Assembly (NCBI RefSeq): GCF_002007105.1
Contig: NZ_MVBC01000001.1
Location: 744,001-808,000, forward strand
Length of the DNA stretch: 64,000 nt
From: Hymenobacter sp. CRA2
GTDB taxonomy: Bacteria; Bacteroidota; Bacteroidia; Cytophagales; Hymenobacteraceae
Reading direction: 5' to 3'
Both the position numbers and the translations under genes were made by a program. Numbering within the stretch: the first letter of the stretch is position 1; each line of letters starts with the position of its first letter. Below the pieces are notes generated by a model. It was not told where the DNA came from, made no database searches, and saw only the letters and a list, made by a program, of their open reading frames with translations. This document shows, piece by piece, positions 21,373 to 26,921 of the stretch.

Positions 21373-23919
21373 ATGAAACAAACTTTACCTTCCTCTTCAA
21401 CTTCTGAGCGTGCCACCCTGGTTACGCGCCAGCAAGCGTCCTTAACTATGTGGCTGCTGCTGCTCTCGGCCCTCGTGCTGCTGCTGGTGCAGCGTGCGCA
21501 AGCCCAAGCGCCGGTGGTATACCGCGTGGGCACTGGCGGCACCTACCCGACTCTGACGCAAGCCCTGGCGGCAGTGCCTGCCACGCTCAACGCCCCTTAT
21601 GAGCTGCAGCTGACCAGCGGCAGCACGTTTGAAGAAAACGTCCTGATTGCGCGGGCCGGCAGCGCAAGCAATACCCTAACCATCAAGCCAGAAGCGGGTG
21701 CTACGGGCATCGTCATTACCGGCACCGTCACCTTCGGGGGCGGCACGCGCTACGTAACGCTCAGCGGCCACAACGGCAGCAGCTCGCGGCAGCTCACGCT
21801 GAAGCAGCTGAGCACGGGGCTGCCCACGGTAGCCCTCACTGGCGACGTGCAGCACGTAACCATTCGCGACGCGCGCCTGCTGGGCAGCAACGCCTCGCTC
21901 GCGGGGGGGGTGGTGGAAATGGATGGCGGGAGCAGCACCGGCAATGATGACAACACATTGGTGAGTAATTACATCGGTAATGCTGCCAGCGGACAGCTGC
22001 CGGCTCACCTCGTGTACGCGGCGCTCAGCACTGGTGCGTCGGCCAACGACCGGGTGGCCCTGCTCAGCAACGAATTGACCAACTACGCCCTGTGCGGGGT
22101 GAAAGTGGAAAGCGGCAACGGCGACGGATGGATTATCCGCGACAACAGCTTCTACTACTCCCTGGGCACGGCGCCCACCTCGGCCCAGACGGCCATCAGC
22201 TTTCAGCCCGGCGCTGCCTCCGACAACAACTCCGTAAGCGGCAACTACATCGGCGGCACGGCCCCGCAGGCCGCCGGAGCGGCCTGGGTTAACGCTGGTA
22301 CGCAGGACTTCCGGGGTATAGTGGTGAGCTGCGGCACGGCTACGGGTGCGGCAGCTAATGTGTTGGAGAACAACGTGGTGCGCAACATCAGCCTTTCGCA
22401 GCCCAGCACCCAGGCCTTCCAGGCCATGCTCCTGGCCGGCGGCCGCAGCGAGCTGACGGCTAATACCGTGGCCGCGGTAACCAACAACGGCACCGACGGC
22501 GTGAACTCGCTCGTGTCGCAGGCGCAGACGGTGCTCAACAGCTTCACGGTAGCGCCGGGGCAGGTGATGTCCATTCAGAGCGGGCAGACGCGGGTAACCG
22601 GCAACCTCACCATCCAGGGCACGCTGAACCACACCGGCGGCGACATCGTGGTGAATGGCGACTTCACCAATGCCGGCGCCTTCGCCCAGACGCTGGGCAA
22701 CCTGGAAGTGCAGGGCAACATGATCAATAACGGCGTGTTCAGCTGCACCACGGGCGGCGTGCTGCTGACCGGCAACGGCCCCCAAACCGTGAGCGGCGGG
22801 CTGTACTACAACCTGGAAGTGCGTGGTGCGGGCGTCAAGACCCTGACCGATGACCTGACGCTGGCCAACAACCTAGTGATGAACGGCGGTGTGCTGGATA
22901 CCGGCCCAATGAACAAGATTCAGCTGAACGCCGACGCCCTGCTCACCGAAACGGCCACCAGCTACGTGCTCGGCCGCGTAATGGCCCGCCGTACGCCCCG
23001 CGCCGGCAGCGCCGAGATTTTCGGCAACCTGGGCCTAACCATGACGCCGGCCGCCGGCTCCCTGCTGCCGGGCGTTACCACCGTGGCCCGCACCACGGGC
23101 ACGGCAGCCACCATCAACGGCACGCCGGGCATTAAGCGCTACTTCGATATATCGGCTGCCACCAACACCGGCCTGAACGTGGAGCTGCGCGTGGATTACC
23201 TCACCACCGAGCTGAACGGGCTGGCCGCCAACGACCTGGCCTTCTTCAAATCGACGGACAACGGCCTGACCTGGCAGCCCAAGGGCCTCAGCAGCAGTGG
23301 GCGCGGCTTCGCCACCCTCAGCGGCGTCGATGGCTTTTCGCGCTGGACGCTGGGCGAGCAGTCGGCTCCGCTGCCCGTGGGCCTCACCGCCTTTCGGGCC
23401 CAGCGGCAGCAGCAAGCCGCCGTGCTGACGTGGACCACCGCCACCGAGCACAGCAGCCGCGGCTTTGGCGTGGAAGTATCCACCGACGGGCGCACCTTCC
23501 GCCAGCTGAACTTCGTGGCCAGCCCGACGCCCAACAGCACCAACGCCCGCAACTACCGTTACGTCGATACGGAACCGGGCAAACACGGCCTGCGCTACTA
23601 TCGCTTGCGCCAGGACGACCTCGACGGCAAAACCACCTACTACGGGGCCCGCACTGTGGCTTTCGACAACCGCCCGGCCCTGGCTGCTTACCCCACGGCG
23701 TTTGACCAGAGCTTCGAAGTGGAATTTGTGGCGCCCGGCACCGGCAATGCCGTGCTGACTTTGACTGACGCCCTCGGCCGCGTGGTATGGACGCAGCAGC
23801 AGGAAGTAATGGCCGGCCCGGCGCACCTGCGCGTGGCTCCGCACTGCCCCGCCGGCAACTACCTGCTCACCGCTTCCGTGGATGGGCAGCACTACCAGCA
23901 GCGTCTGGTGCGGAAGTAA
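21373..23919 (+). CDS. T9SS-secreted beta-helix surface protein
   Basis: This is an 848-residue exported protein. The N-terminus has a hydrophobic signal (about 26-45, LLLLSALVLLLVQRAQAQA). Residues about 50-460 show Asn/Gly-rich strand repeats typical of a right-handed parallel beta-helix (GSTFEENVLI, VVEMDGGSSTGNDDN, YIGNAASG). A later part reads like an adhesin-type domain with LTDDLTLANNLVMNGG. The last about 80 residues (YPTAFDQSFEVEF, LTLTDALGRVVW, AGNYLLTASVDG, QRLVRK) form a type A T9SS sorting domain, which sends the protein across the outer membrane. It may bind or cut polysaccharide or act in adhesion; no catalytic residues could be assigned. Confidence 0.9.
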   Translation: MKQTLPSSSTSERATLVTRQQASLTMWLLLLSALVLLLVQRAQAQAPVVYRVGTGGTYPTLTQALAAVPATLNAPYELQLTSGSTFEENVLIARAGSASNTLTIKPEAGATGIVITGTVTFGGGTRYVTLSGHNGSSSRQLTLKQLSTGLPTVALTGDVQHVTIRDARLLGSNASLAGGVVEMDGGSSTGNDDNTLVSNYIGNAASGQLPAHLVYAALSTGASANDRVALLSNELTNYALCGVKVESGNGDGWIIRDNSFYYSLGTAPTSAQTAISFQPGAASDNNSVSGNYIGGTAPQAAGAAWVNAGTQDFRGIVVSCGTATGAAANVLENNVVRNISLSQPSTQAFQAMLLAGGRSELTANTVAAVTNNGTDGVNSLVSQAQTVLNSFTVAPGQVMSIQSGQTRVTGNLTIQGTLNHTGGDIVVNGDFTNAGAFAQTLGNLEVQGNMINNGVFSCTTGGVLLTGNGPQTVSGGLYYNLEVRGAGVKTLTDDLTLANNLVMNGGVLDTGPMNKIQLNADALLTETATSYVLGRVMARRTPRAGSAEIFGNLGLTMTPAAGSLLPGVTTVARTTGTAATINGTPGIKRYFDISAATNTGLNVELRVDYLTTELNGLAANDLAFFKSTDNGLTWQPKGLSSSGRGFATLSGVDGFSRWTLGEQSAPLPVGLTAFRAQRQQQAAVLTWTTATEHSSRGFGVEVSTDGRTFRQLNFVASPTPNSTNARNYRYVDTEPGKHGLRYYRLRQDDLDGKTTYYGARTVAFDNRPALAAYPTAFDQSFEVEFVAPGTGNAVLTLTDALGRVVWTQQQEVMAGPAHLRVAPHCPAGNYLLTASVDGQHYQQRLVRK

Positions 23920-24035: not shown

Positions 24036-25319
24036 TTATCGGAGGTTCTGCAGGGCCTCGCGCGCTTTGGTGCGGTGCGGATCGGTGGCCTGCCGAGCCG
24101 CGCGCTGCAGTGCCTGCCGGGCCTCCGGGAGCTTTTGCTGCTGCCAGTACACCAGCCCGAGGTAGAACTGGGCCGGCCCGGCCAGCGCGGAGCTGGGCAT
24201 GCGGCTGACGCGCTCAAAGTAGCTTTCGGCCTGCTCGGGCTGCTCCTGGCGCAGCAGCATCAGCCCGTTGTAGTACAGAAAGGTGTCCTGGCCCAGCGCC
24301 TGGGAGGGCAGGCGGCGCAGCGTGTGCAGGGCGGCCGGGTAGCTGCCCTGGCGGTACTGCTCCATGCTTTGGGTCAGCAGGGGGCGGCCATCCGTCAGCG
24401 CGGCCGATAGGCCCGGGTCAGCCACGTCGAAGGAACGCCAGGCCCGGTCGGAGGCGCTCCGACGCGGCAAGAGCAGCACGGCGGCCGCAATCAGCAGGGC
24501 CAGCACGGCCGCGGCCAGCAAGCCGATGCGCAGGCGCTGGCGCTGCTGGCGGCGCCGGATGCGCAGCTGCGCAGCCGTGCGCTGGGCCACGCGCCGGTCA
24601 AGCGACTCCAGCCGCAGGCGCAGGTTTTCGCGGCCCGCCGCCCAGCGCAGGTCGGCCGAGTACTGCTCGTAGGCCAGGCAGGCTTGGCGCAGCTCGCCGT
24701 CCACGAGCAGCTGCGCGTCGAACTCTTCCTGCTCCGACTCGCTCATGCGCGCATCGGCGGCGCGCTCCACTTCGGTGAGATGGGCCAGCAGCTCGGCCGT
24801 GCCGCCGGCCCCGGCGCGGTTCAGGGCTTCGTAGAGCTTGCGCAGTGCGTCGGATTTCTGGCGCCGGGCCACGGAGGCGTTGGCGTAGCCCAGCTTGCCG
24901 GCCAGCGTTTCGAAGTTGGAGCCGCGGAAGTAGAACTGGTGGAGCACCAGCTGGCTGTCGGTGGGCAACTGCACCAGCGTGCGCAGCACCAACTGGCGCC
25001 GCGCGGCCTCCGATTCGGGCAGGGGCTGCTGTTCGGGCAGCAGCGTATTGGTGTTGACGGCGGTGAGCTGCTGGCGGGCCGCGCCGTACAGGTAGGCTTT
25101 CAGGTCGGCGGGCCAGCGGCTAAGGCGCCCGTCCGTGGCTTCGTCGTAAAAATCAAGCAGCTGGTGGCGCAGCACGTCGTAGGCCTGATCGGCGGGCGTG
25201 CCAAACTGCCGCCGCGCCCAGCGGGCAAAGACGTCGCGCTGCTGGGCGTAGAAGTCGGTGAGCGGCGTAAGGGTGCCGGTGCGCAGGCGGGCCAGTTGTT
25301 CCGACAGAAAGGGGCTCAC
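24036..25319 (-). CDS. Sigma-70-like domain fused to membrane anchor and TPR domain
   Basis: This is a 427-residue protein with an unusual layout. Residues about 18-95 resemble ECF sigma region 2 (FYAQQRDVFARWARRQFG, LKAYLYGAARQQL). Residues 108-165 resemble region 4, with a helix-turn-helix in SNFETLAGKLGYANASVARR. Residues 190-245 look like the N-terminal cytoplasmic part of the TPR proteins usually encoded next to such sigma factors. One membrane helix spans about 265-284 after a very basic stretch, and TPR-like repeats fill about 305-427 outside. The GTG at 25319 is the likely start; in-frame sequence further upstream to 25565 is non-conserved and overlaps repeats. The reading frame is continuous. 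Function inferred: a membrane-held regulator that needs release to act. Confidence 0.78.
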   Translation of the reverse strand: MSPFLSEQLARLRTGTLTPLTDFYAQQRDVFARWARRQFGTPADQAYDVLRHQLLDFYDEATDGRLSRWPADLKAYLYGAARQQLTAVNTNTLLPEQQPLPESEAARRQLVLRTLVQLPTDSQLVLHQFYFRGSNFETLAGKLGYANASVARRQKSDALRKLYEALNRAGAGGTAELLAHLTEVERAADARMSESEQEEFDAQLLVDGELRQACLAYEQYSADLRWAAGRENLRLRLESLDRRVAQRTAAQLRIRRRQQRQRLRIGLLAAAVLALLIAAAVLLLPRRSASDRAWRSFDVADPGLSAALTDGRPLLTQSMEQYRQGSYPAALHTLRRLPSQALGQDTFLYYNGLMLLRQEQPEQAESYFERVSRMPSSALAGPAQFYLGLVYWQQQKLPEARQALQRAARQATDPHRTKAREALQNLR

Positions 25320-25329
25320 GGTGGGGCGG

Positions 25330-25608
25330 GGCAGGAATAGAATGAGGAATGACGAAGGAGGAATGGCGACCGGCCATTCCCGTCTAATCGGTAGCAGCGG
25401 CCCGGCGCATGGGCGCGGTGCCGGCGTCATAACGGCGGAGCCGGGGTTTCGGTTGGTGGATAAGGTACGGACAAAGGCGGAAGTCCCCGCCAGACCACCC
25501 GGAGGCCATGTTTCTGACCGCGGGCAATGGGGCCGGAGGCCCGGGTTCCACCGTTCGCGGCGCATTCCTTATTCTATCGTTCCTCACCCCTCATTCTTCA
25601 TAGATTCC
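25330..25608. repeat. Inverted ATTC-rich repeat pair between sigma fusion and glyA
   Basis: The left arm (25332-25380) is built of GGAAT and GAATGA words; the right arm (25562-25606) carries the complementary ATTCC, TTCT and TCATTC words at 7- to 8-bp steps. The arms are imperfect complements. The right arm ends just before the glyA promoter box. This is the weakest-periodicity member of the group. Confidence 0.6.
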
Positions 25609-25625: not shown

Positions 25626-26921
25626 ATGGAAACCACGACCCGTACCCTCGCCCCCGATACCGTTGTGTTTGACCTGATCCGCCAGGAGAAGGAACGTCAG
25701 ACGCACGGCCTGGAACTCATTGCTTCGGAAAACTTTGTGTCGGAGCAGGTGATGCAGGCGCAGGGCTCCATCCTGACCAACAAGTATGCCGAGGGCCTGC
25801 CCGGCAAGCGCTACTACGGCGGCTGTGAAATCGTCGACCAGATCGAGCAGCTGGCCATCGACCGCGTGAAGGAGCTCTTCGGCGTGGAGTGGGCCAACGT
25901 GCAGCCGCACTCCGGCGCCCAGGCCAACGCCGCGGTGATGCTGGGCGTGATTAAGCCCGGCGACAAAATCCTGGGTTTCGACCTCTCGCACGGCGGCCAC
26001 CTCACGCACGGCTCGCCGGTAAACTTCTCCGGCAAGCTCTACGTGCCCTCGTTCTACGGCGTGGAGGCTGAAACCGGCCTCATCGACTGGGATAAGGTGA
26101 AGGAAACCGCCCGCCGCGAGCAGCCCAAGCTCATCATCTGCGGCGCCTCGGCCTACTCGCGCGACTGGAATTACCAGGCCCTGCGCGAAGCCGCCGATGA
26201 AGTAGGCGCCCTGCTGCTGGCTGACATTTCGCACCCGGCTGGCCTGATTGCCAAAGGCCTGCTCAACAACCCCTTTGAGCACTGCCACATCGTGACGACG
26301 ACCACGCACAAAACCCTGCGCGGCCCGCGTGGGGGCCTCATTATGCTGGGCCGCGACTTCGAGAACCCGCTGGGCCTGAAGACGCCCAAGGGCGAAATTC
26401 GGATGATGTCGTCGGTGCTCGACGGCGCCGTATTCCCTGGCACCCAGGGCGGCCCGCTGGAGCACGTCATCGGCGCCAAGGCCGTGGCTTTCGGCGAAGC
26501 CCTAACGGATAGCTACGCCGAGTACACCCGCCAGATCATCAAGAATGCCCAGGCGCTGGCTGCGGGCTTCGTGAGCCGCGGCTACCAGATCATTTCGGGC
26601 GGCACCGACAACCACCTGATGCTCATTGACCTGCGCAGCAAAGGCCTGACCGGCAAGCTGGCCGAAAACACGCTCATCAAGGCTGACATCACCATCAACA
26701 AAAACATGGTGCCCTTCGACGACAAGTCGCCGTTTGTCACCTCGGGCATGCGCATCGGCTCGGCCGCCGTCACGACGCGCGGCCTGAAGGAATCGGACAT
26801 GGACACCGTGGTGGACCTGATTGATCAGACGCTGATGAACCACGACAACGACTCGCGCATTGCGGACGTACGCCGGCAGGTCAATGCCCTGATGAGCGAG
26901 CGGCCGCTTTTTACAGTTTAA
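25626..26921 (+). CDS. glyA: Serine hydroxymethyltransferase
   Basis: This is a 431-residue PLP enzyme that converts serine and tetrahydrofolate to glycine and 5,10-methylene-THF, the main source of one-carbon units. The N-terminal [15 protein letters not shown], the [11 protein letters not shown] substrate loop and the PLP-lysine motif [14 protein letters not shown] (Lys near 229) are all present. Length and C-terminus are normal for a bacterial cytoplasmic dimer. A TACCTTTG box lies 4 bases upstream of the ATG, so the mRNA may be leaderless. Flanked on both sides by inverted-repeat spacers. Confidence 0.97.

Follow-up and report, generated by a model that had tools for sequence, protein, structure and literature searches.

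Does a protein that joins a sigma-like body, a membrane helix and a TPR domain in one chain still act as a sigma factor, or has the sigma fold been turned to another use? The question is raised by one gene of Hymenobacter sp. CRA2, located in the window (the whole stretch of 64,000 nucleotides of DNA analysed here). The gene occupies 24036..25319 on the minus strand, from a GTG start at 25319 to a stop at 24036-24038; its frame of 427 residues is free of internal stops and orthologues align with it. The first-pass annotation had described a single continuous frame of this length without giving its strand, and this description holds. A plus-strand reading of the same interval contains an internal stop and no gene, and was rejected. 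The divergent neighbour glyA (25626..26921, plus strand) marks this locus in relatives of both the split and the fused kind and is regarded as context outside the proposed system. The convergent neighbour (21373-23919, plus strand) encodes a protein of 848 aa whose N-terminus looks like a signal peptide and whose C-terminal tail is similar to type IX secretion sorting domains; Pfam gives it no match at E<=0.001.

The reading preferred here, with a probability of about 0.45, is that the gene encodes a sigma-derived, single-chain sigma/anti-sigma membrane regulator which does not perform ordinary initiation.

Domain layout of the chain

Regions 2 and 4 of a sigma factor had been proposed for the N-terminal half, and profile and fold comparisons support both, although Pfam is blind to this half: TPR repeats are all that it finds in the fusion protein, with no Sigma70 family match at E<=1. 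The NCBIfam sigma70-ECF model matches the window protein weakly (0.02, residues 84-166), and a profile of 17 fused orthologues compared with PDB sequences has SigL of M. tuberculosis as its best match (6.6e-4). Moreover, the same broad NCBIfam model detects 68 of the 75 members of the clade in which the parts are encoded by two genes, so that homology to sigma factors is not in doubt. AlphaFold2, supplied with 91 window and locus sequences, models the entire protein with a mean pLDDT of 94.1. Since a fold search with the full-length model is swamped by TPR proteins, the cytoplasmic part (residues 1-240) was modelled separately (pLDDT 93.5, pTM 0.86). The top PDB matches of this model in Foldseek are ECF sigma factors (best E 1.2e-3, probability 1.00), either as part of a holoenzyme or in complex with an anti-sigma factor, including the SigL initiation complex, AlgU-MucA, SigH, RpoE-RseA, SigK-RskA and SigW-RsiW.

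The predicted sigma2 fold covers residues 2-90 (25050..25316, minus strand, as are all domains below), with helices at 3-13, 18-39, 43-63 and 73-90. It is delimited by the AlphaFold2 model, by residue counts and by a match of residues 2-99 to SigE of R. sphaeroides (2q1z; second aligner, Z 6.8, 3.5 Å, 93 aligned). A coil of 11 residues (91-101, 25017..25049), assigned by DSSP of the model and by length comparison, links it to the putative sigma4 or -35 domain (residues 102-168, 24816..25016). The latter is placed by the model, by conservation and by a match to region 4 of SigL (3hug; second aligner, Z 9.1, 1.6 Å over 73 residues, residues 100-173), and its conserved recognition helix comprises residues 148-168. 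On the modelled structure, the presence of the sigma2 and sigma4 folds of an ECF sigma factor in the window protein is confirmed.

The segment that follows had been taken for a helical linker. It is helical in the model, with helices at 174-188 and 194-206 and one long helix running from 208 into the membrane, but it is probably not a mere linker. Its position, its adjacency to a cognate sigma and a weak NCBIfam antisigma match (0.006, residues 192-286) agree and fit an anti-sigma-like domain (residues 174-262, 24534..24800), which is also delimited by the AlphaFold2 model and by its equivalent in split relatives. Class I anti-sigma factors have a bundle of three helices and a fourth helix that lies on sigma2. 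In these relatives the second gene begins just upstream of the equivalent of residue 174 (MSPAELRPFLDELERFADGQ...) and encodes the helical domain, a transmembrane helix and TPRs; the helical domain is conserved to an equal degree in this separate gene. Both halves are present and adjacent in every clade genome listed with a match. If the linker is indeed an anti-sigma-like domain, the protein would be a sigma/anti-sigma fusion, a kind already known from IutY.

The single membrane helix proposed at about 265-284 is recovered by hydropathy at residues 264-284 (24468..24530). The best 19-mer is 265-283, with a Kyte-Doolittle mean of 2.96, the runner-up elsewhere in the protein reaching 0.69. The 20 residues that precede the helix include seven K/R and no D/E, which places the N-terminus inside and the TPR part outside. 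The TPR domain (residues 290-427, 24039..24452) is thus predicted to be periplasmic, in agreement with the first-pass annotation, and contains a Pfam TPR_16 match at residues 355-411 (5e-10). Its closest folds are the TPR domain of YbgF (2xev, Z 15.8, 2.1 Å) and BamD (2yhc, Z 14.4), model matches that speak to fold only.

Fused and split forms of the gene

The uninterrupted fusion is found in 9/9 genomes of the genus group, including H. gummosus, its members being 58-79% identical to the window protein, which rules out chance and a sequencing frameshift. Most of the sister group of Hymenobacteraceae is split, with 76 loci made up of two adjacent genes and eight fused, bringing the fused total to 17 genomes across two groups. 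Split pairs keep the gene order of the fusion, and those inspected in the sister group lie at the same glyA-divergent locus, as expected from the proposed derivation of the chain from separate genes for a sigma factor and a membrane TPR protein. It had also been reasoned that the fusion might reflect a lost stop or a frameshift if close relatives encoded two proteins. Such relatives exist; the artefact does not follow, since every genome of the genus group carries the fusion, which is moreover recurrent. An assembly frameshift or lost stop confined to one genome was ruled out by the 17 fused genomes.

In a careful tree of 52 loci, from which the junction columns were left out, the fused and split states must change four times (4-4 in bootstraps), and three times in a wider quick tree; both counts come from unrooted trees and do not tell gain from loss. 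A single fused clade, that is, a single origin of the fusion, is rejected (p-AU 5.9e-7). Outside the clade, each distant pair examined consists of two genes, and no other uninterrupted fusion in the order is listed among 291 genomes drawn evenly and considered at E<=1e-15 only. Judged from sequence comparison, the fusion is a lineage-fixed, recurrent joining of an ECF sigma factor with an anti-sigma of the cognate type.

At least nine split pairs of one subclade (L012, L097, L098, L099, L102, L106, L107, L108, L110) show a 4-base ATGA overlap between the sigma stop and the anti-sigma start. These overlaps suggest translational coupling, beside lineages that fused.

Two further arrangements concern other sigma/anti-sigma pairs. 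A gene for a large CHAT (caspase-like) and TPR protein lies next to the split sigma/anti-sigma-TPR pair in three further genera of the family (L143 3606-6647, L144 6383-9277, L145 2907-5825), and the CHAT protease could be an activator of the split pairs in those genera; the window genome has one CHAT gene, on a different contig. The window genome also contains a second, ordinary pair (L141 1226-3007; contig C11 about 465.7-467.5 kb) in which an ECF sigma factor (Sigma70_r2 8e-8) is followed by a membrane protein that is a predicted protease: its N-terminus is anti-sigma-like, and it contains a trypsin-like domain (Trypsin_2 1e-25).

A decaying pseudogene, or an artefact of assembly or frameshift, might be suspected from the blindness of Pfam to the N-terminal half and from the split state of the sister group. 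It is refuted at the sequence level and retains next to no probability, as the fusion occurs in 17 genomes of two groups and all domains are under purifying selection. Median pairwise dN/dS values in the genus group, calculated by NG86 without codon-bias correction, are 0.17 for both sigma4 and the anti-sigma domain, 0.23 for sigma2, 0.30 for the periplasmic part and 0.31 for the linker, values which indicate that every cytoplasmic domain is under purifying selection. It is also very improbable that the frame yields two products, with an internal start restoring a separate anti-sigma-TPR protein. Possible in-frame start codons do occur near the junction in several genomes, but none is conserved. 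The candidate put forward in the first-pass annotation, the Met of MSESEQEEF (Met192), lies within the anti-sigma domain and is replaced by Leu in the majority of relatives, while a GTG at position 150, present in most genomes, sits within the sigma4 recognition helix.

Initiation features of the sigma body

The sigma2 domain of the whole clade, fused or split, departs from that of ordinary ECF sigma factors. With identical settings, Pfam Sigma70_r2 at E<=0.01 is detected in 18/18 ECF sigma factors of the window genome and in 8/9 of the distant split homologues, but in 0/92 clade members (0/17 fused, 0/75 split); models of PhyR are among the Pfam control matches. The Pfam signal of region 4 is weak in the clade. 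The asparagine involved in -10 melting (N88 of SigH) is replaced by Gln, Glu or Leu in 92/92 clade proteins, the tryptophan beside it by His, Tyr or Phe, and the isoleucine by Ala, Val, Met or Leu, so that W/I/N reads Y/A/Q in the window protein. In SigH of M. tuberculosis, substitution of W81, I85 or N88 by alanine impairs transcription, and removal of the linker abolishes it (PMC6411747). A basic patch is lost as well: over the 14 residues that follow the -10 asparagine, the net charge is about 0 in the clade against +3. A minority of members, by contrast, retains the region 2.2 glutamine (18/75 split, 8/8 sister-group fused). Ordinary ECF sigma factors also vary at the W, I and N sites, and single substitutions are not decisive; the weight of this sequence evidence lies in the combination, found in every member.

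The distance between sigma2 and sigma4 is also altered. From the -10 asparagine to the first turn of sigma4 there are 27-36 residues in the clade versus 42-63 in ordinary sigma factors, which makes the linker 12-20 residues shorter; in solved structures the distance is 48 in SigL, 51 in Mtb SigE, 58 in SigW and 58 in AlgU. The linker of an ECF sigma factor has to reach through the active-site cleft and the RNA exit channel. That of SigL passes through the RNA exit channel (PMC6372665). At 3.5 Å per residue, an extended coil of 11 residues spans at most about 38 Å, and the modelled linker looks too short for a SigL-like path through RNA polymerase, as judged from its length rather than computed on the polymerase. 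Since split members share the altered sigma2, loss of the initiation features most likely preceded fusion.

In the recognition helix of sigma4, the fused proteins show no variation at V150, R152, Q154, K155 and R160, and the split ones none or almost none. The surface of this helix is the binding site for helix 1 of class I anti-sigma domains (PMC7406223), so that this conservation may reflect anti-sigma packing as well as, or instead of, DNA binding.

The best point in favour of a working sigma factor is an ECF-like candidate promoter element, AAC-N17-CGTTA, upstream of the gene (25430..25454, minus strand). In its AAC-N16/17-CGTTA form it is the best conserved block of the region between glyA and the fusion gene, in 8/9 genus-group genomes, and would fit autoregulation. 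It is nearly absent from the sister group, with two scattered matches in 80 split loci. A search of the whole genome for a regulon with AACCN{13,14}GCCGTTA gave eight matches, equal to the eight of the reversed control and thus no enrichment, and no RNA element was matched by Rfam at E<=1 between the fusion gene and glyA.

Proposed output and known fused systems

The preferred regulator would have arisen by the joining of a sigma gene to the adjacent anti-sigma-TPR gene. In the resulting chain the anti-sigma-like domain would clamp the sigma2-sigma4 body in cis and continue as one helix into the membrane, and a signal would be received by the periplasmic TPR domain. A classical sigma factor set free from the chain is most probably not the output, the initiation features having probably been lost before fusion; upon opening of the clamp, the helix-turn-helix of sigma4 would more likely act from the membrane on DNA or on the RNA polymerase flap. 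Alternatively, the sigma body could serve as a protein-binding module. A sigma body that no longer needs to diffuse would lose nothing with its stop codon, which would explain why fusion recurs. The full course of events, in which sigma2 of the Hymenobacter clade lost promoter melting first and the sigma and anti-sigma genes then fused repeatedly into a membrane-tethered regulator that is no longer a sigma factor and takes its signal from a periplasmic TPR sensor, is proposed tentatively, somewhat short of an even chance.

Ranked after this tethered regulator is an IutY-like released sigma factor, a possible but less probable reading. The chain would then be a working ECF sigma factor inhibited in cis, and a periplasmic signal would cause the chain to be cut at its membrane helix by site-1 and RseP-type proteolysis, the N-terminal fragment transcribing a regulon of its own. 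The domain logic is that of IutY of P. putida, a substrate of Prc and RseP (PMC5411451), fold and purifying selection are intact, and the upstream element is present in 8/9 genus-group genomes. The genome also encodes two M50-family proteases (one at E 2.4e-62), although such proteases are near-universal and hence weak evidence. On the other hand, 92/92 proteins, fused or split, have lost the -10 residues, the basic patch and the usual length of linker, the sigma2-sigma4 coil has just 11 residues in the model, and the upstream pattern is unenriched genome-wide and missing from almost the entire sister group. A working sigma factor in need of proteolysis, as first suggested for this gene, therefore accords poorly with losses that are clade-wide and include unfused members. 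Third, and improbable, is a structural or decoy role, in which the sigma body is purely an interaction module, for example one that sequesters other anti-sigma factors or lends stability to the TPR membrane protein, without contacting DNA or RNA polymerase. Retention of the fold after loss of the sigma2 features is consistent with such a role, and PhyR, an established sigma-like domain that serves as an anti-sigma decoy, is a precedent. However, the invariance of R152, Q154, K155 and R160 in fused proteins, and their near-invariance in split ones, exceeds the needs of a scaffold, though anti-sigma packing could explain it.

About a hundred closely related species carry this sensor as one or two proteins and constitute a natural experiment on sigma-inhibitor fusion. 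If the sigma body has truly lost initiation while still under selection, it would show a route from a transcription-initiation subunit to a membrane regulator. It would also caution against taking every database 'sigma factor' encoded beside a membrane TPR protein for a genuine one.

In the open literature searched, no earlier description was found of the TPR sensor, of the lineage, of the recurrent fusion or of the altered sigma2. Within that literature, subscription papers being outside its scope, no paper was found that joins Hymenobacter, sigma factor, anti-sigma and ECF, that treats a degenerate ECF region 2, or that links CHAT, sigma and TPR in Bacteroidetes. Among the closest known systems are the split pairs of the Hymenobacteraceae and of the order, which have orthologous parts in the same order in two genes; outside the clade, unlike within it, these pairs keep an ordinary sigma2. 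ECF42 proteins likewise combine sigma and TPR in one chain (PMC8999054), where the TPRs are a protein-interaction extension of the sigma factor, whereas the TPR domain of the window protein lies beyond an anti-sigma-like domain and a membrane helix. Fused sigma/anti-sigma groups include ECF36, 48, 52 and 53 (PMC8999054). ECF48, ECF52 and ECF53 (e.g. SCO4117 of Actinobacteria; PMC8999054) share the C-terminal anti-sigma-like extension with a transmembrane helix, but have a zinc-finger anti-sigma domain and other extracellular domains, with no TPR described, and belong to a different phylum. IutY of P. putida (ECF243), a fused sigma/anti-sigma protein whose sigma part is freed by Prc and RseP cleavage (PMC5411451, PMC8999054), is similar in being a hybrid of normally separate proteins, with an ECF sigma domain, one transmembrane helix and an anti-sigma/sensor part in one uninterrupted chain. 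It is a proven sigma factor with a periplasmic cell-surface-signalling anti-sigma domain and a TonB-dependent partner receptor; the window protein, in contrast, would have a TPR sensor and a cytoplasmic anti-sigma-like domain, with no adjacent receptor and a sigma2 without the usual initiation features.
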